DNA of 64,000 nt from Lepisosteus oculatus (taxonomy: Eukaryota; Chordata; Actinopteri; Semionotiformes; Lepisosteidae), in the NCBI RefSeq assembly GCF_040954835.1, contig NC_090703.1:17869444-17933443 (forward strand), given 5' to 3'. This document shows positions 718-62,384 of the stretch, in pieces. The translations under genes were made by a program, and so were the position numbers. A model generated the notes under the pieces. The model made no database searches and had not been told where the DNA came from. It saw nothing but the letters and a program-made list of their open reading frames with translations. The first letter of the stretch is position 1; every line of letters starts with the position of its first letter.

Positions 718-3210
718 CTGCAGAAAAAAACAGACATCCAACTGCTTTTCTGTTATCTAAAAGAGACTGCGATTTTGTGAAGCTGAGCATGAAATTTATT
801 GTGCCCAGAGAGGCAAAATCTAAAATCATTCAATATTGAAGAGTCTTGTCATGCCTTTCCCTTTGGACAAAAAGAAAACAGAAAAAGGCATGTTTAGTGT
901 TCTGCTTACCTGGTAGAATACGTATCATAGTAGAGAATTTCATTGAAATAGAACATCGTAACACAAAGCCTAAACTCGGATAAAAGCCAACTGACCTATC
1001 ACAGAAAAAAGACAAGAGCATCTAAATGGTCATTTACATGAGATGTTGTGCAAAATACTGTGCCTCTAGAGAGAATAAAATCTGAGCCACCAATGGAAAC
1101 CCTGGTGCTCAGGCTGAGTGATGCATGCATAGAGTGTGACCAGCCCTGAAAAGCTTGATAAATACAGCTCCTGCACTGCACCAGATCTATTTAATGAGTA
1201 GCCAGTCAGGAAGCAGATACTGTTGTCCAAGTAGTACAAACCAAACTATGCAAAAAAGTTTTCATTATCCATCAAAACAAATTGTAATCTTGTTCAAATA
1301 TAGAATAGAATATCAAGGGTTTTGCAATATTACAGTAGTTAACAAATATTGTATTACAAGCATATAGGATTTACTGATCACTGTACCCTAATTTAATTTA
1401 ATTGAAGGTCAAAATACATAATGGTAGTATTATTGTCATTTATTGTAGCAATTTAAAAGTGTTTTTATTCAACAGTTGGTTGGTTTCCTCTATATTGAGT
1501 GCCTTAAACACACTGTTGCTTTTGACTATCCTACTCTGTATTATACTGCACTGGGTTTTCTATATTTCTATTTCGTTTAAAAACACAAAAGAACTGCACT
1601 AAAATTCATTTCCTGTCTAGTATTCCAACATATACATTTAACTACAGTATGAGGTGGAGCAGATATGATGCAGTAATGTTTCAAGGTTAATAATGATTCT
1701 ACCTCCCATGTTCCTATTTTCTCCCTTTCTCTATTTAATGTGAAATTAATTTGAATTGAGTGAAAGTGAAACATCTGGATCTCTATTAGTACTGAACATA
1801 CAGTACAAGCATACATACTGTGCTGATGAGGTTCAAGTGAGGAGCCTTTGAAGGAATGCAAAGCATGGGTGGCAGACAGACCCAAAGAAACACAAAAAAC
1901 TGTCTCTCTTCTTCATTTCTACGTTTCTGTGTGGAATTAAAATCTACAGGTTGCTCTGCAAACATATTGGGTATTTTGCATTGCTCTGTTTTTTTTTCAC
2001 TCAATGCCTTTCCTTTCTCATGCAGATGATGATGTTCTACTGAAATTGTAGCCATATTGTTTCAAACTAACAGTTAATAGTCCTAGCTCTACATTTGATA
2101 GTACCAAAAGTAGCCTTTTAGCTTTAACAATGTAAAGAGAGGGAGAGAGGGTGGCATGACGGTGCAGTGGTTAGGATTGTTGTCTCGCAGTGCTGGGGCC
2201 CTGGGTTGGGTTCTGGACCTGCTGTGCTTTCTGCGTGGAGTTCGTATGTTCTCCCTGTGGGATTCCTCCAGGTGTTCTGATTTTCTCCCACAGTCTAAAA
2301 ATATACTAGTAGGTTAGTTGGCTTCTGAGAAAACTGGGCTGTGTGTGAATATCTGTGTCTGTGTCTTCCCTGTTGGTGTCCTGTCCTGGGTGTAGTTTGC
2401 CTGTTGTTTGCTGGCACAGGCTCTGGCTTCCCTATGACCCTGAATTGGAAGAAGCCGTTACAAAATGGGTGGGTGGAAGAGAGAGATTAATTCAATCTCA
2501 GATTAAAAACACCACTCCTTGTTTACACAGTATACTGTATATCCAGTCTTGGTGGTAGGCAAATGTAAATGTAAACTCCATTACTTACATTGGGGGACTT
2601 CTTGATTGTAATGGTAAGGTCCTCTGCTTTCGCTCTCCGGCTGAGGAAAGCCATGCCCTCTTCTTCTGCTCTCTTCTTGTCTTCTTCTACTTCCTGTGAA
2701 GATTGGGCAGGTTTAAAGTCTGGTCTGAGACAAGAGAGTGACTTCACTGAATTCCAACTCAGTGGAAACAAGCGGCTCCTGTTTTGCTTTATCATTCCCT
2801 AATTTCTTTTTTTTCAGACACTGCCAGGGCCTTTTCTTTTCTTTCATCTAGTAGTACAACTTTTAAAATACTGTATGTAGATGAAAAAAGTGAAAACACT
2901 GTGTAATACAGAATGTATTATCTGTGTTCCATCCCCCACCCCCCTTGCTTTTAGGCTTATGACTTCACAAAATCTTCTACAATATCTGTAGATAAATACA
3001 CAAAGGGTAACACAAAGGTGACCTCTTTCATTTTCTTTATATTTCTTATGCAGACAAAGTGAGAGTTCAGAAACCAAAATGAAATTTCAAAGACGCCACC
3101 TGGTATCTTTTCATCAGCGCTTCATTCTTTTTCCGTAAAGCTTCAATTTTCTTATCCAGTTCTGCATCCTTCTGTTCTTTCTTTTTAAACATGACATCAG
3201 GTGAATTATT
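565..3210 (-). CDS. ccdc9b: CCDC9/CCDC9B-like coiled-coil protein, 5' coding part (three exons, partial)
   Basis: Three minus-strand exons, 3210-3100, 2693-2589 and 717-565, join in one phase-0 reading frame of 37+35+51 codons. The first encodes a charged coiled coil (KDAELDKKIEALRKKNEAL, then KRYQ). The second continues with EVEEDKKRAEEEG and ends LTITIKKSPN. The third starts EARVVTKKPGSG and ends LLVTMANKNK. From memory of the family, human CCDC9 and CCDC9B start with the same KDAELDKRIEALRRKNEAL-type helix followed by an EEDRK-rich stretch. CCDC9B also has LTVTIS followed by RVVS, which matches the exon 2 to exon 3 junction, so CCDC9B is preferred. The function of CCDC9B is poorly known; CCDC9 is a putative exon-junction-complex and RNA-associated protein. 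The C-terminal part is outside the window. Translation could start at the in-exon ATG (3192-3190) or in an upstream exon. Family assignment is fairly sure; CCDC9B rather than CCDC9 is less so. Confidence 0.75.
910..995 (-). other. Possible cryptic or poison exon in the ccdc9b-like intron
   Basis: Minus-strand segment with a strong acceptor (T-rich tract ending GATAG) and a strong donor (CAG|GTAAGC). It is 86 nt long, so including it between the flanking phase-0 exons would shift the next exon into a frame with an early TGA. Its translation resembles nothing I know in CCDC9 proteins. It could be a regulated nonsense-mediated-decay exon or chance. Confidence 0.25.
2149..2492 (+). repeat. tRNA-derived SINE, V-SINE-like, nearly full length
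   Basis: Starts with the tRNA-like head (GGTGCAGTGGTTAGGATTG...CTGGGTTGGGTTCTGG, a degraded box B). It continues with the conserved central domain (GTGGAGTTCGTATGTTCTCC, TTTTCTCCCACAGTCTAAA) and ends with the CCCTGAATTGGA...AATGGGTGGGTGG tail. It matches other copies in this window at 36.6, 38.4 and 50.7 kb. It sits in a ccdc9b-like intron. Confidence 0.8.
2589..2693 (-). CDS. ccdc9b: ccdc9b-like coding exon 2 (35 codons)
   Basis: Acceptor CCAATCTTCACAG before 2693 and a perfect AAT|GTAAGT donor after 2589. Encodes EVEEDKKRAEEEGMAF...LTITIKKSPN, the continuation of the coiled coil. Length is a multiple of three, phase 0 at both ends. Confidence 0.75.
3100..3210 (-). CDS. ccdc9b: ccdc9b-like coding exon 1 or 2 (coiled-coil exon)
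   Basis: Acceptor TTATTTCTTTCCAG before 3210. Open from AAT AAT TCA CCT GAT GTC ATG, then a Lys/Glu-rich heptad helix ending KRYQ. The donor CAG|GTGGCG is weak at positions +3 to +6, but the junction falls exactly where human CCDC9 reads RYQ|E. An ATG at 3192-3190 could be the start codon. The seven codons before it are also open, so an upstream coding exon remains possible (see 14365). Confidence 0.75.
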
Positions 3211-3539
3211 CTGGAAAGAAATAACAGTTGAAGTAAAGAGCAAAAGAAATGCACAGTTTCTTGGGGGTATTAAGTATGCCACAACAGAGGCTGCAGTCCA
3301 CAATTGTTTCCTGATTGTTCAGAATAGCAACAAAGTTGACAAGGAAAGTATATCAGCTCTTGTCTTTAAGCACTCATAGACTTATAGTCCATAGTTCTTG
3401 TGAGGGATGAGGCAAGTCAGAGTTTGACCCCAAACCAAGGGCAGCAGGCAGGACTGTAAGTATACAGCTGCTCTCTCCATGACAAGAAGTCAATATATCA
3501 CAGAGCAACAGAAAAAAACATTGAACAAGTGCTAATCAA

Positions 3540-7947: not shown

Positions 7948-8967
7948 TTAATGCTTTGTAGAGCCACCTTTTGCTGCGATTACAGCTGCAAGTCGCTTGG
8001 GGTATGTCTCTATCAGTTTTGCACATCGAGAGACTGAAATTCTTGCCCATTCTTCCTTGCAAAACAGCTCGAGCTCAGTGAGGTTGGATGGAGAGCGTTT
8101 GTGAACAGCAGTTTTCAGCTCTTTCCACAGATTCTCGATTGGATTCAGGTCTGGACTTTGACTTGGCCATTCAAACACCTGGATACATTTATTTGTGAAC
8201 CATTCCTTTGTAGATTTTGCTGTATGTTTGGGATCATTGTCTTGTTGGAAGATAAATCTCCGTCCCAGTTTCAGGTCTTTTGCAGACTCCAACAGGTTTT
8301 CATCCAGAATGGTCCTGTATTTGGCTGCATCCATCTTCCCCTCAATTTTAACCATCTTCCCTGTCCCTGCTGAAGAAAAGCAGGCCCAAACCATGATGCT
8401 GCCACCACCATGTTTGACAGTGGGGATGGTGTGTTGAGGGTGATGAGCTGTGTTGCTTTTACGCCAAACATATCGTTTTGCATTGTGGCCAAAAAGTTCG
8501 ATTTTGGTTTCATCTGACCAGATCACCTTCTTCCACATGTTTGGGGTGTCTCCCAGGTGGCTTGTGGCAAACTTTAGACGAGACTTTTTATGGATATCTT
8601 TGAGAAATGGCTTTCTTCTTGCCACTCTTCCATAAAGGCCAGATTTGTGCAGTGTAAGACTGATTGTTGTCCTATGGACAAACTCTCCCACCTCAGCTGT
8701 AGTTCTCTGCAGTTCATCCAGAGTGATCATGGGCCTCTTGGCTGCATCTCTGATCAGTCTTCTCCTTGTCTGAGCTGAAAGTTTAGAGGGACGGCCAGGT
8801 CTTGGTAGATTTGCAGTGGTCTGATACTCCTTCCATTTCAAGATGATCGCTTGCACAGTGCTCCTTGGGATGTTTGAAGCTTGGGAAATCTTTTTGTATC
8901 CAAATCCGGCTTTAAACTTCTCCACAACAGTATTACGGACCTGCCTGGTGTGTTCCTTGGTCTTCAT
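7948..8967 (-). CDS. Tc1-like transposase, complete, 339 aa (DD34E)
   Basis: Cut-and-paste transposase that binds the terminal repeats and moves the element to TA sites in the nucleus. Residues 1-110 hold two helix-turn-helix units (GFGYKKISQASNIPRSTVQA; ITLDELQRTT) joined by the GRPSKL hook. The catalytic domain has D152 (WSDETKIELF), the glycine box KHGGGSIMVW at 185-194, D243 (FQQDNDPKHTA) and E278 (SPDLNPIENLW). Exactly 34 residues separate the second Asp and the Glu, the Tc1 DD34E signature. The length of about 340 aa is normal for Tc1 and no stop or frameshift is present, so the protein may be functional. The start is the first ATG, about 180 nt inside the right repeat. It is unrelated to the host genes and sits in the long ccdc9b-like first intron or intergenic space. 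Confidence 0.97.
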   Translation of the reverse strand: MKTKEHTRQVRNTVVEKFKAGFGYKKISQASNIPRSTVQAIILKWKEYQTTANLPRPGRPSKLSAQTRRRLIRDAAKRPMITLDELQRTTAEVGEFVHRTTISLTLHKSGLYGRVARRKPFLKDIHKKSRLKFATSHLGDTPNMWKKVIWSDETKIELFGHNAKRYVWRKSNTAHHPQHTIPTVKHGGGSIMVWACFSSAGTGKMVKIEGKMDAAKYRTILDENLLESAKDLKLGRRFIFQQDNDPKHTAKSTKEWFTNKCIQVFEWPSQSPDLNPIENLWKELKTAVHKRSPSNLTELELFCKEEWARISVSRCAKLIETYPKRLAAVIAAKGGSTKH

Positions 8968-9142
8968 GATGCTCTCTGCGCTTTCAACAGAACCTTGAGA
9001 CTATCACAGAGCAGGTGCATTTATACAGAGACTTGATTACACACAGGTGGATTCTATTTATCACCATCAGTCATTTAGGACAACATTGGATCATTCAGAG
9101 ATCCTTGCTGAACTTCTGGAGTGAGTTTGCTGCACTGAAAGT

Positions 9143-19239: not shown

Positions 19240-19915
19240 ACAGTGCAGTGTAGATTATCGACTGTCAATTGTCAATTGTCGATTGCCGATTGTCACATGC
19301 ACACTTTGACCAAGATTAGTCATCATAGCCTGCAGCTCTTTCAAAGTAGCCATTGGCTTCTTCCCAGCCTCTCTGATCAGTCTCTTTCTTGCTTGGTCAC
19401 TTAGTTTGAAGGGACAGCCTGATCTAGGTAAGTGTCATTCCACTTCCACTTCTTAATAATAGTCCCATACCCATACCCTGACCTGTGACAGCTTTGTCCT
19501 GGAGTTATTTTGAAAGCTCCTTGATGCTCATGGTTGAGTCTTTGTTTTGAAATGCACTACCTAGTAGAGGGAACCTACAGAATCTCCTGAATTTGCTTTG
19601 TATGCATGTGAATCACTATAATTTAACACAGGCCATATTAACATGGTGTGTGATTTTAAAGGCAATTGGTTGCACCAGAGTTAATCTGGGATTGCTATTA
19701 CGGAGGGTGGATACTTATCCAACTAATTAATTTCCATTTTTACTTTTAATTAATTTTTTTAATAATCTAGATTTTTTTTTTTACTGGTATGATGTGGGGT
19801 AGGTTGTGCAGATAAAAAAACATATTTAATGCATTTTAATTACTAGCTGTAAGTCAACAAAAGCCGAAAATTTTGCAAGGGGGTGTAGACTTTCTTTAGT
19901 GACTGTTTTCATGAC
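19240..19915 (-). mobile_element. Degenerate Tc1/mariner-like element
   Basis: The right end GCAAGGGGGTGTAGACTTTC is the outer part of a Tc1/mariner-type terminal repeat. 19370-19450 (CTGATCAGTCTC...GGACAGCCTGATCTAGG) is the reverse complement of a decayed transposase DNA-binding region (the GRP hook). GGGTGGATACTTATCC lies internally. No intact frame. Confidence 0.5.
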
Positions 19916-25989: not shown

Positions 25990-26748
25990 TCAGATCATAG
26001 GTGAGGGGTGAGGTGAGAGTAAGAGAGGCTTACGTTTTCCAGATGGTAGCGGATCATACAGTCTGTAGCTGGGGTGTGTGGGGTCTTTGATGATACTTAG
26101 AGCTTTCCTCAAGCACCGTCCATCATAAATGTCCTGTATAGATGGGAGGGCAACCCCAGTGATGGACTGGGCAGTTTTCACCACTGACTGTAGGTCTTTG
26201 TGGTTAGCAGTACTGCAGTTGCCATACCACACTGTGATGCAGCGTGTCAGTGTGCTTTCTGTAGTGCATCTGTAAAAGTTAGTGAAGATCTGGGGACATA
26301 TCTTAGCCTTCTTCAACCGTCTTAGGAAGTACAGGCGCTGTTGCGCTTTCTTGATCAGACAGGTGGCGTTGAGAGACCATGTGAGGTCCTCGGTGATATG
26401 GACGCCAAGGAATTTAAAGTTACTGACCCTTTCCACTTCAGTCCCGTTGATGTGGATAGGGGCATGTCCAGTTTGCAGTTTCCTAAAATCAACGATCAGC
26501 TCTTTGGTTTTGCTGATGTTGAGGGTGAGGTTGTTGTCATCACACCATGTTGTAAGGAGATTGACCTCCTCCCTGTAGGCCCTCTCATCATTGTCTGTGA
26601 TCAGACCTTCAACTGTGGTGTCATCAGCAAACTTGATGATGGAGTTGGTGGTGTGTTTGGCCTTACAGTCGTGGGTATAGAGGGAGTAGGGCAATGGACT
26701 AAGCACACACCCCTGGGGGACCCCAGTCTGCCTGTCAGAAAGTCCCAA
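25990..26748 (-). pseudogene. LINE reverse transcriptase, C-terminal fragment (252 codons)
   Basis: Contains the VPQGCVLSP box, the FADD catalytic motif, the NLTLNISKTKELIVDF box and a KFLGVHI segment typical of L2/CR1-clade reverse transcriptases. Upstream parts of the protein continue in other frames to 27267. Not functional. Confidence 0.85.
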
Positions 26749-27290
26749 ATCCAGTTGCAGAGGGTGGTGTTGAGACCCAATGCACTGAGTTTCTTGACTA
26801 GTTTCTCTGGGATGATAGTGTTAAAAGCTGAGCTGAAGTCGATAAATAGTAGTCTTGCGTATGTGTTCTTTTTGTCCAGATTGCATAGGGCAGTGTGTAT
26901 GGCAATGGAGATTGCGTAATCTGTGGATCTGTTGGGCCTGTAGGCAAACTGGTATGGGTCCAGTGTGTTTGGAATGGTGTCCTTAATGTGCTTCATGACC
27001 AGCCTCTCGAAGCACTTCATGATGACATGTGTTAGTGCCACCGGTCAGTAGTCATTAAGACATGTCACTGTGGTTTTCTTTGGTATTGGGATGATGGTGG
27101 TAGTCTTGAAGCAGATGGGGACTACTGCTTGGGCCGGAAACATGTTGAAAATATCTGTGAATACACCCGCCAGTTGATTTGTGCAGGCTTTGAGGACACG
27201 ACTGTGTATGCCGTTGGGTCCTGCAGCCTTGCGTGTGTTCACTTTTAGTAGATATCATTCCACTCACCTTTCAGAAGGGTTTTGTGGAAG

Positions 27291-31700: not shown

Positions 31701-33120
31701 GAGAGTGATGTACATACTGTACAGTATCAGGTTCTAAAGAGTGACTTGTAGATGCTCCTTAAATGCGTGTATACATTAAAGTAGCTGTATTTAAACAGGA
31801 TTTCATTTAAAATAAAGTAAAAATCCCCATATAATCTGATAAAATGCTTAATACATTTATTATTCCATTTTATGCAGTATTCTATTCAGATATTTCATTT
31901 GAAAACTGCAATGCACAGACATACTGTATTCTGAGATATTCTGGAAGAATTTTATAAAAGTATTACAACTTTGTCACAATGTAGAAATGAAAGCAAATGG
32001 TCATAATATTCTTCTGCATCATCAATGCAAAATAATATTTTGTTACTGTAACCAGTGTTGCAGCTTTGATAGCATGTGTTGTCTTACATGTGTACTAATC
32101 TTCAAATTGTGCTGCTTTTCTACAAGAGCCCCACCCATTTTCTATCTCTTCGGCACTACCTTCCTTGTCTACCTTATTCAATGACTAAAATGGGTGAGGT
32201 TTTCTAAATTCCAAACCAGTGAATCAGAGAGGCTATAAGTAGAGGGCGAATACCTAATTCATCAATATCCTGTGAAGATCCCACAAAAGGTAAGATAATT
32301 TTGTGCCCATTAATCCTATTCTGCACATATTGAGAAAGATGGACAGAAAAACATGGACATTTTATTAAAGCATTTAAGCAAAACATATAATGAAATAGCA
32401 TCTGTAATTCTGAATCTCTGAGTCAGTAGTAGCCTGCATAAATGAACACAAACATAAAAGTGTGAATGACAGATATCATGCCTAGGAGGTATAGATCATA
32501 CAGTATGTACAGTAATACTTTGAAGTATTTCAATCTATGAGTTCACTTCATTGTGATGGTTAAAAATGAAAACAGAAATATTGTTTTAAAGATTTAAGAT
32601 GGACAGCAGGAGGCATTAACTAATAATGGGTGATATATCTGTCACTTTCTACTAATAAACTCTAAGCAAAAATGATTACAAATAATTTGGTTTTTAAAAA
32701 ATTCTTTATGCTTTATACTTCAGATGTTTAAATTAATAATTGTTGTACATTCATTTTTATTAAGTTAAATTTAAATAATGACAAACTAGACTGCAGAGAT
32801 GGAAAACTGAGAAATATTTTTTTTTATTAAAGAATAAGTCATATGTCTGTGTGCCACTACTGTATATGAGCAACATACTTACAGAGAGATCCTTCTTGCA
32901 TTTTAGGCTAACATTTTAGTCTGACACACATTAAATCACATTAAACATCAAGACAAAATAATGATTGTTTATCTTGAGTTAGTCAGGTTTTTACCTTTTT
33001 CTAGGTTCTCAATTGTTTCTAACTTGATCTTGTAATAAAAAACCCACAGCCATGTGCATTTTAATTTATTCCCTTAAGACACTTTCTGACTTTCTTTTCC
33101 TCAATGTTGTCCAGTGCATT
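28766..33120. other. Noncoding DNA upstream of the small Gly/His-rich gene
   Basis: 31190-31690 is less AT-rich and includes donor-like sites at about 31262 (AATG|GTAAGA) and 31682 (GAGA|GTGAGT). It might hold the untranslated first exon and promoter of the gene starting at 33154, but no acceptor-donor pair proves it. The 94-codon open frame at 31365-31649 has no recognisable features. Confidence 0.3.
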
Positions 33121-33153
33121 TTTTCTATTCCATCCTACATCAGGAACATCAAC

Positions 33154-33166
33154 ATGAGTGACCCAG
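33154..33166 (+). CDS. Gly/His-rich gene, start-codon exon
   Basis: ATG AGT GAC CCA G followed by GTCAGT donor (phase 1). The acceptor for the leader part of this exon is probably CTATTCCATCCTACATCAG ending at 33143. Confidence 0.55.
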
Positions 33167-35901
33167 GTCAGTGTGTGCACTGTTTTGTTTTCTTTAAATG
33201 AAAAGCAGACAGACAATATTCTGCAAAAAGATGATGTAACAACAAGTAGGATCCCAGTTAGGATTTAGGAACTAATGACAATTGTTGCATGGCTTGTATT
33301 TTTTAAAACATTACTTCATGTAACTAATTTACTCAATTCAATACCAATATTAATTTAGAGGGATATTTTTGTTACTTCAGCTTAACATAATAATTCAAGC
33401 TTACTAATAGTACTCCCAGTTATATTTGATCTTAATTACCACTCAGAGAAGACAGAAGATTTATATCAATATGATAAAAGTCCAATCAATTAATATTGAC
33501 AAAATCACAGATGCTTATACAATAGTACAAATACCTCACAAGACATAGTGAATTAATGTATATTTGCTCTACCCATCATTTAATTAAGCATTTATGCAAT
33601 ATGAAAATGTTACAAACTGGATTTGCATCAACAAGTCAGTCACATCACTGTACTAAATATGTAAATCAATTTACTAAAGCAAAATACAGTACATTGCTAC
33701 CTGTAAGATATGGGCTTTAAAGAATCCTATCTATATTAAAAAAACAAGACAATGAAGTTCTGAAGACATTTTATGTTTTATAAAGTTATGTATTGTGAAG
33801 AGATAATGACAATGTTCAGAATTCATTTTCATATTTAGAAAGTAGATCATGTAATCATAATCACAGTTCATTCAAGCATGATATACTCATCCTAGAATTA
33901 ATAGGATTAGATCCAATTAATAAATGCTAGCAATCTTCGTTAACAGGAAAAAGGTAATTGCAGTTAGTAGTTGTATCAAACAGTTGATATAGTTGTTATC
34001 CAGCTCCCTGCTAGTACTACAGCATTTGTGGTAGTGTTAATTTATGACTGGCGCAAGATAAATGTCTGTCTACATGTAAAGAAAATAATGTTTTAACTTT
34101 TTATTGTGTATACAATTAGCGATAACAAATAAAAAGTGGAAAATATTATATATCTATTGTACTTCATAAGTACTGTTTGTTTGTTTTTTTCAGCAGTACC
34201 AAAGGTAAGGTGTTCTTTTTATTTTGGACATTTCATCTAGCTTTCCTCTCAGCCCCTGTGAGGATCAGAAACGTTTACAAATGTGAGAAAAATGGAAAAG
34301 CAGTGAATAATTAATTAAAAAGTATTGCAGATCATGCTGACTAATGCAAATTTAAATCACTGAAGCACTGCTAGTCTTTGGTTTTGTCGTTTATAAATCA
34401 ATTAGAAATTACACAAATGTACAAAAGTTGAAATGTACAAAATTAGCATACAAAAATGAATACCCTATAATTCCAAGACATCCTATAATTCCAATATCCT
34501 TTAATTTCAAGATTATAATAATATTTCGTAATATTTAACAACTATGATGCTAATTGTATTTTTTTTAATTCTCTCTTAAGAACCCTGAGCATGATTAACA
34601 TTCTCAATTTTTCCAACCTAACATTCATTCTAAATCAAAGGTATTACTGCCATAAATTTAGAAAAAACTAATAAAAATGGACCATGCAATATTACTATTT
34701 AGTCATCCTTACAATCTTATAAAAGATTGCCTAAATGTCCTTTTTGCTGTGTTAACAGGTTCCTCAGGAAGGAGTTGCAGGAGAAGGAGGATCTGTTGAT
34801 GAGGTAGGATTAACTACTGTAGATAAAGCAGTTAGATCAGTTAGCAAAACCAAATGAGATAATGAGAATTCGAACTTCAACAACTGTACTGTGTCGCAAC
34901 TAAAAGTTAAGTTGTGGTCCAGTTCTTTTTAAGAACCACTGCAAAGCTTTTGAACAGGTGTTAATATATAGCACAATACTAAGATGCTTTCCCTTCCGAG
35001 TATAAGATACGACATATCTTTCCTAAATCATTTTTTCTAGAATAGTCAGTTTGTATAGTAACCTTTCAGAAAGTTTACCATGGAAATTGTTTCATGTCAA
35101 GATGAAGGAAAGTACTCACCAGCCCAGTCCACTGTTTTATGTGGGACATACACGTTGCATTATTTTGAAATGTTTTTAGGCTGTGAAGCCAATAAAATAA
35201 TAAAATAAACCTAAAAGAATAACTAATATTGAAAAGGTACTTAAACTGATATCATCATGGCTATGTTTCCATCAGTAAATTATTCAGTCATTGCAGCTTT
35301 TTAAAATTCCTTTCAAAGGAGCAGTTTGTGTTTCTTTTCTAGAGCTGTGGGGAGTGAACTTTAAAAGTTCTTTTGCAAATTCCAACCAAAAGAAATACTG
35401 TACATCCTAGCCCTTTAAGAACCAAGTTTAGCCGAAACAATATAATGACAGCAAAGGACATTATGCAGGCTGTGGAGTTAGAAACTTGAACTTGAACCAG
35501 TCTGCTTTTATGCTGACTGGACACAATACCCACTTACCCAACTGAATGATTGCACAAGCAGTGAAAGAGAAACACTCAGTCACATTCGCAGGCTCAGTAT
35601 CCAGCAGTCTTAGAGAGTATTGCCCTGACACATGTATCAGCTGATGAAATGGCAAACCTGAAAACGCAATGGAGGCACTTGCACAAGTACAACTGGGAAA
35701 CAATGATAGAGCAGAATGGCTAAATATCCAAACAGTAAAATAACAATGATTTTATTACGCTTCCAGGGAAAGAAAAAGGGACAAGGAAAAGGAGGAAAAG
35801 GAGGAGAACATGCGGAGAAAGGAGCTGGCCATGGACATGGTCATGGCCAGGGTCATGGTCATGGTGGTGGTGGAGGTAAGGGTGGGCGAGGTGGCCACTA
35901 A
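33154..35901 (+). CDS. Small Gly/His/Lys-rich protein, four coding exons, PHGR1-like candidate (66-67 aa)
   Basis: Assembled from the sequence: exons 33154-33166, 34194-34204 (or from 34197), 34759-34803 and 35767-35901, all with GT-AG introns and matching phases (1, 0, 0). The product starts MSDP(A)VPK, then VPQEGVAGEGGSVDE, then a Lys/Gly stretch and a GHGHGHGQGHGHGGGGG segment ending GGRGGH. There is no signal peptide, membrane segment or cysteine. The His-Gly repeats could bind metal ions, which is inference. From memory, human PHGR1 is a short Pro/His/Gly-rich intestinal protein beginning MDPGPKG and lies head to head with CCDC9B. Here too the gene faces a ccdc9b-like gene. Sequence similarity is otherwise compositional, so orthology is tentative. 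An untranslated exon probably lies upstream, since a CATCAG|GA acceptor sits about 10 bases before the ATG. Confidence 0.65.
34194..34204 (+). CDS. Gly/His-rich gene, microexon with NAGNAG acceptor
   Basis: A long T-rich tract ends in CAGCAG, then TACCAAAG, then GTAAGG. Using the first CAG gives an 11-nt exon (A-V-P-K), the second an 8-nt exon (V-P-K). Both keep frame. Skipping the microexon would read the next exon into an early TGA, so it appears required. Confidence 0.55.
34759..34803 (+). CDS. Gly/His-rich gene, third coding exon (15 codons)
   Basis: Acceptor GTGTTAACAG before 34759; donor GAG|GTAGGA after 34803. Encodes VPQEGVAGEGGSVDE, phase 0 at both ends. Confidence 0.6.
35767..35901 (+). 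CDS. Gly/His-rich gene, last coding exon
   Basis: Acceptor TTATTACGCTTCCAG before 35767. 44 codons plus TAA. Starts GKKKGQGKGGKGG, then alternates GH and GQ dipeptides, and ends GGRGGH. GGN/CAT-biased codons set it apart from the AT-rich surroundings and argue for real coding sequence. Confidence 0.7.
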   Translation, partial: GKKKGQGKGGKGGEHAEKGAGHGHGHGQGHGHGGGGGKGGRGGH

Positions 35902-36060
35902 GAAAAAAACTCAGCCCTGAAACAATGACTGCCATATCCTCTTCAATGGAACCAGGAACCAAACACAAACCCAATATATTCAATGGGGAGTATTTGTTCA
36001 AGTTAAAACAATTATACTGTACTAAGAAACTTTAATTTTTTGTAAAAGAAAAAGGTAAAT

Positions 36061-36066
36061 AATAAA
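36061..36066 (+). promoter_or_regulatory. Poly(A) signal of the Gly/His-rich gene
   Basis: AATAAA about 160 bases after the stop codon at 35901. Confidence 0.5.
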
Positions 36067-47024: not shown

Positions 47025-49118
47025 TTATATTTTTTTGGCATGTTTTGAGTTATAGTGGCTCCTCATGTCTTTCCTCAAGCGGAACTTTTCTCCACACACT
47101 CCACAGATATACAAATGTACGTCCATATGCAGCTCTAGTTGTTCATTGTTGGGAAATATCTGGAAGCATACTTGGCATATGGTCTCCCCTGCAGACAGGT
47201 GGGAGATCATGTGACGTACGTGATCGTGTTTTAGAAAGGTACCTTGATCGCACACCGGGCAGACATAGCGAGCCATGCCTTTATGCATGTCATTGTGGAG
47301 GCGTAGTTGGCGCTCTCTAAGAAACTGCTTCCCGCACGTCTGGCAGGTGAACTGCTTCTCCTTGGTGTGAACTGTGTAGTGTTCCCGAAGGTGACACCGC
47401 TGGTAAAACCCTTTCCCGCAAATACTGCAGAAATGTTTCCGTCGGTGATCCCGGTCTCCTTCCTCCACCAGGCCAGACCTGTAGAGGTCTTGATCGGGAC
47501 ACTTGACCATGTGCTCCACTACCAGTTTCTCATTCTCAAAATGCAGGCCACAGTGTGGGCATCGGAAGGCAAAACAAGCATCTTTGTACATCTGGCAAGA
47601 CCCAGCTATATCGCCATCGTAGCTCATATCAGCCTCTAACAGGCCTTCGTCCATGGTCTGTTTCTCCCCGCCAATGGAGTCTTCCCCTACCGAGTCAGTT
47701 TCCACATCCTGGGTTTCCCCACACCTCTCTGCATGTTCTTGTAACTGCCTACCTTTGATTAAAATCTGGCCACATTTTCCACACGCACAAATGTGCCCCA
47801 TGTGACTGGAGATATAATGGGAAGACTGATCTTCTTCAGTCAGCAGAATTCCACAAAGCTCACAAGGCAAATAGAGAGTACCTTGTCTTTCCTCTTTTAT
47901 AGTGCTGACCTTGGTTAATGTACCCTTGTCTTCCCTGTTTGGCAAATGGCCATCAAATGGGCTATTGCTGTCTTCCAAGCCAGAAATGCCAGCTTCCTCA
48001 TCTTTGTCATCCACAAGTTGGACTTTCATCATATCCTCATACCCAGAATTTTGTGTGCTTGAACCATCTATACTATGCTCTCCAACCTGAACCACTTTTA
48101 TGCTATCCATTTCCAATGGAGAGCTTTCTTCTGGCTCAATTTTGATAATGATGGTATTTCTAGAGGACTTTGATTTATTCTCTGTTCCTGCCCCAACAGA
48201 CTTGATCACAGTTTCTTTATTGAATGTTTCACTGTCAGACTTTTGCTCTGGCCAGTCACTGTCCATTTTGCCAACATCGCTATGGTCTTCTGATGACTCC
48301 GAGGCTGAACTTTCCATCTTGCTGCTATCATTATCAGCTCCCATCCTGATCTTGGGGGGTTGGAATGCTTTTCTGTTCGTGCACGTGAGAATGTGCTCTA
48401 TCAGCAATTTTTCACAGCTGAACACAAATCCGCAGTCGTCACACGTATATGTTCGTCCAAAGCGAGGACGCTCCTTCATGGAAGAACTTCTTCCAGAGGG
48501 TTTTTTGCGCAAGTCACATGGCTGGTCTGACACATTGTCCACATGAGGCAGCACATGAGACACCACTATGTCTTCGATCTGTCTGCTGCTGCTTGTGCTA
48601 CTACTTTGCACTGTAGAGGTCAAGCTAGTGGCTTGCTGCAACCGATCACCTTCCACACTGCTCTGCTTCTGTTGTTCATACATGCGAACGCCAAACATCA
48701 TTTTGCTCTTCATCAGGCCCAAAGTTGTAGATGAAGAAGAAGGGGTTAGACTTGTACTTCTGATATCTTTCAGGTCCTCAAGAGACTCTGGAATATAATA
48801 CATCTGCAGATAAATCATAGCAGCTTTGAGCTCCTCAAACTCATATGGGCCAACCACTATTCTCCCAAGATACATCAGCTGGAGGATAAGATCAAAGCAT
48901 TCAGCGCTGATCTTCATGTTGCTGAGGTTCAGACGGGCCATAACCTGTTGGTCTTTGATAAACATCATTCTGAAGTAGGAGCTGCAGGCTGCAAGGACAG
49001 CTTTGTGAGCCCGAAAGTAAATATCTCCGATGGCGATGCAGCAGTCACAAAGAAACCCCCATTCTCTCTGGTTATTCAGCTGTTGCAGGACATGCTCACT
49101 GTGGCTGGGCTTGGGCAT
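47025..49118 (-). CDS. zbtb1: ZBTB1, BTB/POZ and zinc-finger transcriptional repressor (697 aa)
   Basis: Nuclear repressor needed for lymphoid development and implicated in translesion DNA synthesis in mammals (family knowledge). The CDS is one exon. Residues 8-115 form the BTB/POZ dimerisation domain (LNNQREWGFLCDCCIAIGD...FRAHKAVLAACSSYF). Fingers: C226/C229/H242/C246 (C2HC), C419/C422/H434/H439, C446/C449/H462/C466 (C2HC), C520/C523/H536/C540 (C2HC), then C2H2 fingers at 564-584, 592-612, 620-640, 648-668 and 672-693. The third to last of these share long runs with human ZBTB1 as I remember it (GKGFYQRCHLREHYTVHTKE). The C2HC spacing fits the UBZ4 ubiquitin-binding type described for ZBTB1. 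IIIKIEPEE at 323-331 is a sumoylation consensus centred on K326. Human ZBTB1 is about 713 aa. The intact full-length frame makes this certain. Confidence 0.97.
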   Translation of the reverse strand: MPKPSHSEHVLQQLNNQREWGFLCDCCIAIGDIYFRAHKAVLAACSSYFRMMFIKDQQVMARLNLSNMKISAECFDLILQLMYLGRIVVGPYEFEELKAAMIYLQMYYIPESLEDLKDIRSTSLTPSSSSTTLGLMKSKMMFGVRMYEQQKQSSVEGDRLQQATSLTSTVQSSSTSSSRQIEDIVVSHVLPHVDNVSDQPCDLRKKPSGRSSSMKERPRFGRTYTCDDCGFVFSCEKLLIEHILTCTNRKAFQPPKIRMGADNDSSKMESSASESSEDHSDVGKMDSDWPEQKSDSETFNKETVIKSVGAGTENKSKSSRNTIIIKIEPEESSPLEMDSIKVVQVGEHSIDGSSTQNSGYEDMMKVQLVDDKDEEAGISGLEDSNSPFDGHLPNREDKGTLTKVSTIKEERQGTLYLPCELCGILLTEEDQSSHYISSHMGHICACGKCGQILIKGRQLQEHAERCGETQDVETDSVGEDSIGGEKQTMDEGLLEADMSYDGDIAGSCQMYKDACFAFRCPHCGLHFENEKLVVEHMVKCPDQDLYRSGLVEEGDRDHRRKHFCSICGKGFYQRCHLREHYTVHTKEKQFTCQTCGKQFLRERQLRLHNDMHKGMARYVCPVCDQGTFLKHDHVRHMISHLSAGETICQVCFQIFPNNEQLELHMDVHLYICGVCGEKFRLRKDMRSHYNSKHAKKI

Positions 49119-60900: not shown

Positions 60901-62384
60901 GACAGCAGGGATGTAAAGATTAGAGTATGGATATCATCTCCATATTAATTTCCTCACATGATACACAAGAGTGAGGGTCATTATGAGGCTCAAACAGAAT
61001 TTCTCTTGCTAACAATATTTAAGATCAATAGAAAATAATAGTATGAGTGGATAGATAGTTCTCTCAGTTTACAGTTTCAGCCTAATGTCAGTTACGTCAA
61101 AATGCAACAAAGCACTGTTCAGTTTTATCTTGGTTTCAGTTTTAAACATTGTTTGTCTTTTTAAAGGTGAATTCATAAGCTCTCACAACAGACTATTTTT
61201 TTCCTTTTTGTTTATCTCCTAACAGTGAGTGCATTAAAATACAACCTACTGACATACAGCCTGATGTCTTCAGTTACTTGCTCCATATCATGTACACTGG
61301 AATGGGCCCCAAGCAGCAGGTGGACCAAAGTCGACTGCAGGAAGGAATTAAATTCCTTCATGCCTACCAGCTTTACCGTAACACAGGTGAAGGTGGGCAG
61401 GAGGCAGCTTCTGATACAATCAAAATTTCAAACTTGTATGGGATCCAGATATCATCACAGATGGCTGCCAAGGAAAACCTGGGCCTCAAAGAAAACCGGT
61501 CTAGAGTTTTAGAGGAAGAGATGTCTGGGACTCAAGCTGACCGTCCTCAGATCCAGTTGTCACTTGCTGTAGGACTGGAAGGGACATCTTCTGATAGACC
61601 ATTGTCTAGTCTTCATGGACCTTCTTCTGTAACTTCCAGAGATGAACCTGAGGCACCAAACATCTCTGTGACCATAAAGCAGGAAAAGACGGAGTTGGAG
61701 CTGTCGGCAGAGCCCCAGACTAGCTCCCCACAAAACCCGGAGAGTCAAAGCCCAGGATTTTTCAAAGACAGCCCAAAGCCCCTCTATTGTCATTACTGCG
61801 GGGAGCGCTGCAGCTCGCGCCGTAACCTGCGTGAACACTTGTATACACACGCCAGTGGTTCTCTTCCTTTTGGGGTCCCAGCTGGCATCTTGGAAAACAA
61901 TAACCTTGGCGAAGTGCAGAAGATGAGTGAAGACTTTGAGAGCCTAGAGGAGAGGCACCTGCAGAGCTTCTTGGTGCGGAAAAGCCCACAGTCACAGGAC
62001 CAGCCAGACTCGGGTAGCCTAGAGGAAGCCCTCCGGCAGAGCCAGTCATTGACATTGTCTTCTGAAGAGCTGGCAGCGGAACTGAAAAGTGGCAGCCCTT
62101 ACTCCCGGAAGCGAAAGATTGCTTGTGCTATCTGCAGTCTCAGATTTGCACAAAAGAGCCAATTGCAGGAACACATGTACACGCATACAGGTAAACACTC
62201 CCGCTATCACAGGTACAACCGCTTTTGTAGTCAGCTGATCCAGGCATCCCAGCATTACTGTGAAAGTCAGTCTGAGTATGGAGTCGAAGAATCTGCTAGG
62301 GACTCTCAAGACAATGTCAGCTCGTGTTATTCCTTAGATTCTGAGATTTCCCAAGAAAGCATTGACACTGTTGTTGTAGAATAG
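57816..62384 (+). CDS. zbtb25: ZBTB25, BTB/POZ and zinc-finger protein (443 aa, two coding exons)
   Basis: Join 57816-57988 with 61226-62384. The junction restores [19 protein letters not shown], a run nearly identical to human ZBTB25 as I remember it. The gene encodes a nuclear zinc-finger regulator reported to repress NFAT-target genes in T cells. BTB/POZ covers residues 1-110. A QLSLA(V/I)GL segment at about 168-175 and an IKQE sumoylation consensus (K209) follow. C2H2 finger 1 has C246/C249/H262/H266 and finger 2 has C358/C361/H374/H378, the two-finger layout of the family. The C-terminus ESIDTVVVE is conserved. Length compares with about 435 aa in human. It is divergent from zbtb1 about 8.7 kb away, as in human. 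Confidence 0.96.
57989..61225 (+). other. zbtb25: ZBTB25 intron between coding exons
   Basis: GTAAGG...TTTATCTCCTAACAG, 3,237 bp. It holds a LINE/SINE remnant at 59330-59870. The other short open frames are chance. Confidence 0.85.
59330..59870 (+). mobile_element. Decayed L2-type LINE or SINE tail in the ZBTB25 intron
   Basis: [19 protein letters not shown] (from about 59351) resembles the C-terminal part of an L2/CR1-type reverse transcriptase. Downstream, GTAAGTCACCCTAGATAAGAGTATCTGCTAAG is the typical L2-like 3' tail, and AAAGCACTATATAAGTAAAT near 59838 is a second tail-like motif. Confidence 0.55.
61226..62384 (+). CDS. zbtb25: ZBTB25 second coding exon
   Basis: Acceptor TTTTTGTTTATCTCCTAACAG before 61226. 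Contains the second half of the BTB domain ([16 protein letters not shown]), the linker, both zinc fingers and the TAG stop at 62382. Confidence 0.95.

Follow-up and report, generated by a model that had tools for sequence, protein, structure and literature searches.

Introduction

Histidine-rich metal-binding tracts occur in the histidine-rich loops of ZIP transporters and in histidine-rich glycoprotein. PHGR1 has been described from mammals, and its human leader is MDPGPK; a literature search for this string returned no match, only the lysine at residue 6 being found in print, and searches for PHGR1 with teleost or with Xenopus returned no match. The protein is a marker of the gut epithelium whose function is given as unknown, and its low-complexity sequence makes homology searches difficult (PMC5803922). 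The human gene has four exons, a 434-nt mRNA and a product of 82 aa containing 29% Pro, 18% His and 31% Gly, in which the lone lysine, at residue 6, is followed by glycine; three cysteines and one lysine are conserved among the six mammals aligned, and the protein is found in the mature gut epithelium, where it is both cytoplasmic and nuclear (PMC5803922). PHGR1 is also among the proteins named for differences between human and mouse in their low-complexity sections (PMC3836704), and composition therefore says little about relationship across a span of more than 400 million years. Lists for human 15q15.1 hold INAFM2, CCDC9B, PHGR1 and DISP2 together (PMC8850418; PMC6826789).

The current study concerns a window of 64,000 nucleotides (the whole stretch of DNA analysed; C8:17869444-17933443) from Lepisosteus oculatus, whose 1.2 Gb assembly includes both large chromosomes (C1, 78.9 Mb) and small ones (C30, 12.0 Mb). 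An earlier note on this DNA had proposed a four-exon gene for a Gly/His-rich microprotein that might be a counterpart of PHGR1. The gene model, the search for a second copy, the neighbours and the composition of the product were computed here. If the gene is indeed a positional counterpart in a fish, the PHGR1 gene would predate the split between ray-finned fish and tetrapods, the comparison would reveal the constrained part of PHGR1, and fish would be available for tests of function. Genes with coding exons of 8-45 nt and a low-complexity end form a blind spot in gene finding, and ccdc9b as a neighbour provides a handle for locating such genes.

Gene Model and Predicted Product

Four plus-strand segments of the window with GT-AG borders join in phase (33154-33166, 34194-34204 or 34197-34204, 34759-34803, and 35767-35901). 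The borders and phases in the earlier note were reproduced, as were its protein of 66-67 aa ending in a GHGHGHGQGHGHG tract and the AATAAA that follows, which lies at 36061. The features of the gene are:

33144..33166, plus strand: exon 1, coding from ATG 33154 (MSDP), with a phase 1 donor
34194..34204, plus strand: exon 2, a microexon of 11 nt (8 nt from 34197), coding for (A)VPK
34759..34803, plus strand: exon 3 (45 nt, 51% GC), in phase 0 at both ends, coding for VPQEGVAGEGGSVDE
35767..35901, plus strand: coding part of exon 4, GKKKGQGKGGKGG...GHGHGHGQGHGHG...GGH, stop TAA at 35899-35901
35902..36066, plus strand: 3' UTR, up to and including the poly(A) signal AATAAA at 36061-36066

At its border exon 1 reads ATGAGTGACCCAG, then gtcagt; exon 2 is bounded as tttttttcag, CAGTACCAAAG, gtaagg, exon 3 as gtgttaacag, GTTCCT...GATGAG, gtagga, and exon 4 follows acgcttccag with GGAAAG...CACTAA. 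Exon 1 may be the first exon, or it may start at an acceptor (atcag, then GAACATCAACATG) after a noncoding exon. The joined product, MSDPAVPKVPQEGVAGEGGSVDEGKKKGQGKGGKGGEHAEKGAGHGHGHGQGHGHGGGGGKGGRGGH, has 67 aa, and a 66-aa form lacks the first alanine; this ambiguity arises because exon 2 has a tandem acceptor (cagcag) and starts at either 34194 or 34197, which gives a coding sequence of 204 or 201 nt. The poly(A) signal is 160 nt downstream of the stop, and the whole mRNA, which would have at least four exons, is perhaps about 450-500 nt by our estimate. The predicted protein (6.2 kDa, pI 9.2) is basic, rich in Gly, Lys and His, and without a signal peptide. Its 67-aa form contains 27 Gly (40.3%), 8 Lys (11.9%), 7 His (10.4%), 3 Pro (4.5%) and no Cys, and includes the tract HGHGHGQGHGH. 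On the opposite strand, an open frame of 103 codons (window 35723-36031, minus) runs over exon 4 and encodes HHHHDHDPGHDHVHG between hydrophobic runs; it is probably a mirror of the GH tract.

Genomic Neighbourhood and Origin of the Gene

The ccdc9b-like gene that had been reported to the left, on the opposite strand, is indeed there, and the case for it is stronger than first claimed, with a DUF4594 exon, coiled-coil exons and an InaF gene beyond. The neighbouring features are:

3070..3318 of the window, minus strand: ccdc9b coiled-coil exon ORF (stop-to-stop), KKEQKDAELDKKIEALRKKNEALMKRYQ
C8:17854151-17854321, minus strand: ccdc9b DUF4594 exon (PF15266, E 8.6e-21), outside the window, the gene running leftward
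47025..49118 of the window, minus strand: single-exon BTB and C2H2 zinc-finger ORF, the right neighbour (Pfam BTB 7.9e-20, zf-C2H2)
61278..62384 of the window, plus strand: C2H2 zinc-finger ORF (Pfam zf-C2H2)

Coiled-coil exons of ccdc9 type lie on the minus strand at about 2.6-3.2 kb of the window, the ccdc9b coiled-coil exon being 77% identical to its C3 paralogue over 30 aa. The candidate gene is on the plus strand and is transcribed away from ccdc9b, and the InaF gene lies beyond ccdc9b. Two genomic places carry DUF4594, the domain of the CCDC9 family (C8:17854151, minus; C3:5391331, plus), and two carry the InaF motif (PF15018; C8:17811987 and C3:5410843), so that the C8 and C3 sites resemble a pair of paralogous inafm-ccdc9 loci. 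On C3, a SAE1-like exon (PDB match, E 1.5e-16) at a distance of about 60 kb from ccdc9 fits human 19q13.32, and the C8 pair was therefore taken as inafm2-ccdc9b. Since the C3 locus has InaF, DUF4594 and the SAE1-like exon but no gene like the candidate was seen in its 90 kb, C8 was likewise taken as the CCDC9B copy. The arrangement InaF, ccdc9b, candidate on C8 agrees with the human set INAFM2, CCDC9B, PHGR1, given the order and strands that we take INAFM2, CCDC9B, PHGR1 and DISP2 to have in human.

Frames resembling those of mobile elements were also recognized by eye in the window. Between ccdc9b and the candidate, interrupted frames from a non-LTR retrotransposon resemble reverse transcriptase (25990-27254, minus), an open frame of 350 aa (339 aa from ATG) at 7951-9000 (minus) resembles a Tc1/mariner-type transposase, and a second Tc1/mariner-like fragment is found at 19258-19434 (minus).

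On the right-hand side, the BTB zinc-finger ORF is presumably zbtb1; since different proteins with BTB or zinc-finger domains were its best matches in PDB, the name is provisional. We take the ORF at 61278..62384 to be zbtb25, and an mthfd1-like exon with an FTHFS domain is found further right, on L021; together, zbtb1, zbtb25 and the mthfd1-like gene presumably correspond to human 14q23.3. Because the human cluster has DISP2 but the neighbour here is zbtb1-like, the candidate is placed at the boundary of two syntenic blocks. Between C8:17811987 and C8:17973443, a block resembling 15q15.1 (inafm2, ccdc9b) borders one resembling 14q23.3 (zbtb1, zbtb25, mthfd1-like, under the names assumed above), and this junction may represent ancestral linkage or a lineage rearrangement. 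A DISP-like long ORF lies at C8:12207264, 5.7 Mb from the candidate; the 20 kb before it (C8 12186000-12205999) contain no Pro/His/Gly-rich frame, and no rival PHGR1 candidate was accepted there.

No second copy of the gene was found in whole-genome protein and DNA searches. The protein search with the peptide matched exons 3 and 4 of the gene itself and, weakly, one place on C30, which was rejected as a paralogue (E 3.9, 35% identity) and whose own frame is Gly-rich and without a GH tract. In DNA searches, which pass over simple repeats and highly frequent words, the stretches containing exons 1, 3 and 4 each occur at one genomic place; a repeat origin was rejected on this ground. A Pfam search of the joined peptide, taken up to E 1, gave no match, and PDB gave no significant chain, with two insignificant matches (E 0.024 and 0.64). 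At the paralogous C3 locus, no counterpart was seen in the 90 kb beside ccdc9: tblastn of the peptide gave one insignificant match (E 0.28), and two marginal Pro/His/Gly-rich frames (12/20 and 13/20 residues), both without a GH tract, were rejected.

One potential explanation is that this is a real microprotein gene unrelated to PHGR1, lineage-specific and rich in Gly, Lys and His, whose origin or arrival next to ccdc9b was an independent event, which we regard as possible though on balance improbable. An independent origin would account for a product with no Cys (against three conserved in PHGR1), 4.5% Pro (against 29%) and eight lysines (against one), for the valine that follows the leader lysine where PHGR1 has glycine, for a flank that is zbtb1-like where we take the human one to be DISP2, and for the absence of related sequence elsewhere in the genome in the whole-genome search. 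However, it would leave to coincidence that PHGR1 and the candidate have in common a flank, a strand (as we take the human strands to be) and a leader-like N-terminus, and that exon junctions lie inside and at the end of the leader. The fast evolution of the low-complexity sections of PHGR1 (PMC3836704) also speaks against it.

Splice Chain Versus Chance

Splice sites were scored with a general vertebrate consensus matrix that was not trained on the host species, and were ranked among the 3,581 plus-strand GTs and 3,991 plus-strand AGs of the window. By this matrix, the donors of exon 1 (CAG/GTCAGT), exon 2 (AAG/GTAAGG) and exon 3 are in the top 0.75%, 0.28% and 1.23% of the GTs, and the acceptors at 34194, 34759 and 35767 in the top 0.35%, 2.9% and 2.4% of the AGs; the alternative exon 2 acceptor at 34197 and the acceptor before 33144 are in the top 1.9% and 3.9%. 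When all chains of an ATG and three introns leading into exon 4 were enumerated in the region 32900-35766, the proposed chain was the only one found, in four variants (two in-frame ATGs by two exon 2 acceptors), and the same was true at looser thresholds.

Among 1,000 first-order Markov resamples, none contained any chain at the strict thresholds; at loose thresholds, a chain appeared in 1 of 200 resamples and the observed score was reached in none. Real controls consisted of 350 half-overlapping pieces from both strands of C8 and C3, five of which contained a chain and four of which reached the observed score, in a test that is not blind and favours the chain because its thresholds were taken from the observed one. 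The leader motif did not occur in control chains in any set (0/1,000, 0/200 and 0/350), a weak test because the null pieces hardly contain chains. In addition, exons 2 and 3 together are 50% GC in surrounding introns of 28-36%, and 119 of 20,000 random pairs of segments of the same lengths were equally GC-rich.

These comparisons bear on a second explanation, in which a decaying (GGTCAT)n simple repeat with chance splice-like signals upstream has been mistaken for a gene and is not expressed. The tract is a tandem repeat (an 18-nt unit in 2.2 copies, a 6-nt unit in 6.7 copies), exons 1 and 2 contribute only 13 and 11 nt of coding sequence, and the four real control pieces that reached the chain score might be read in this way. 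However, the C3 locus, which is 50% GC, supplied every one of the five control chains, at least one of which lies inside a real, SAE1-like gene, and none was found in the 228 control pieces from C8 (35-37% GC); the absence of chains from the 1,000 resamples likewise speaks against chance. Exon 3 is in phase though it lies outside the repeat, and of the four differences between the first six GGTCAT-like units and the commonest unit, three are silent in the frame, a count of few events. A fortuitous chain is thus quite unlikely: the splice chain is confirmed to be better than chance, the four-exon Gly/His-rich microprotein gene of the earlier note has good support, as a model, against both Markov and real controls, and the chain is very probably a genuine protein-coding gene.

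A longer, secreted form, starting at the in-frame ATG 33052 with a hydrophobic leader MCILIYSLKTLSDFLFLNVVQCIFSIPSYIRNIN before MSDP and exporting the Gly/His-rich part, is highly improbable: although no stop interrupts the frame between 33052 and exon 1 and window 33052-33153 (plus) encodes a hydrophobic, signal-like extension, the stretch is 34% GC, T-rich and looks like the polypyrimidine tract of the acceptor at 33144, and the mammalian PHGR1 protein has been reported from both cytoplasm and nucleus (PMC5803922).

Proposed Role

The best explanation, to which as a whole we give an even chance, is a genuine single-copy gene that is most likely the positional counterpart of mammalian PHGR1 and that encodes a microprotein which would act as a metal or pH buffer. 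We infer that such a protein would be expressed in epithelium as an intrinsically disordered microprotein of the cytosol or nucleus. Constraint would fall on the short leader that exon 1 and the microexon encode; the last exon would be a fast-evolving low-complexity tract. It is plausible from the sequence of the (Gly-His)n tract that it binds metal, and such binding of Zn(II), Cu(II) or Ni(II) would be loose and reversible; the Lys/Gly half may make the protein more soluble or let it bind acidic partners weakly. With its GH tract and Lys/Gly half, the protein could buffer metal or pH in absorptive epithelium. That metal binding is its main role is a further step of reasoning and appears doubtful.

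Comparison with Known Systems

The tract of the candidate is like those of the ZIP transporter loops and histidine-rich glycoprotein in having alternating His-Gly runs of the kind that weakly bind Zn, Cu or Ni, but the candidate differs in being a free-standing microprotein without a domain or a membrane segment.

The likeness to PHGR1 begins with position: CCDC9B is adjacent on the opposite strand and an InaF gene lies beyond, if the human order and strands are as we take them to be. Both genes are multi-exon with a short mRNA, the candidate having four coding exons and an mRNA length that is estimated only, and both encode a small protein without a signal peptide and with a low-complexity body rich in His and Gly. 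Both also have a short leader ending in lysine, at residue 6 in human and at residue 7 or 8 in the candidate, MSDP(A)VPK here against MDPGPK in human. In contrast, His makes up 10% of the candidate and 18% of PHGR1, while Gly makes up 40% and 31%, respectively, and the (GH)n tract of the candidate stands against five repeats of about 11 aa; the tandem units in exon 4 are of 6, 9, 13 and 18 nt only, and repeats of about 11 aa are absent.

The suggestion that the gene is a PHGR1 counterpart thus holds in part: place, strand, size, the lack of a signal peptide and a leader, MSDP(A)VPK, that may resemble the human one speak for it, while the composition, the valine after the lysine and the zbtb1-like flank speak against it. 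Because the candidate departs from PHGR1 in Pro, Cys, the number of lysines, the glycine after the lysine, the repeats and the right-hand neighbour, it was not filed as PHGR1. From its sequence and surroundings, it is better described as a positional counterpart whose orthology to PHGR1 is about an even question, if slightly on the doubtful side. With the same reserve, it can be tentatively proposed that PHGR1 is an ancient gene of bony vertebrates, in which a stable spliced leader of 6-8 residues, encoded partly by a tandem-acceptor microexon of 8-11 nt, would have been kept while the body drifted from a Gly/Lys/His-rich form without Cys to the Pro/Cys/His-rich form of mammals.
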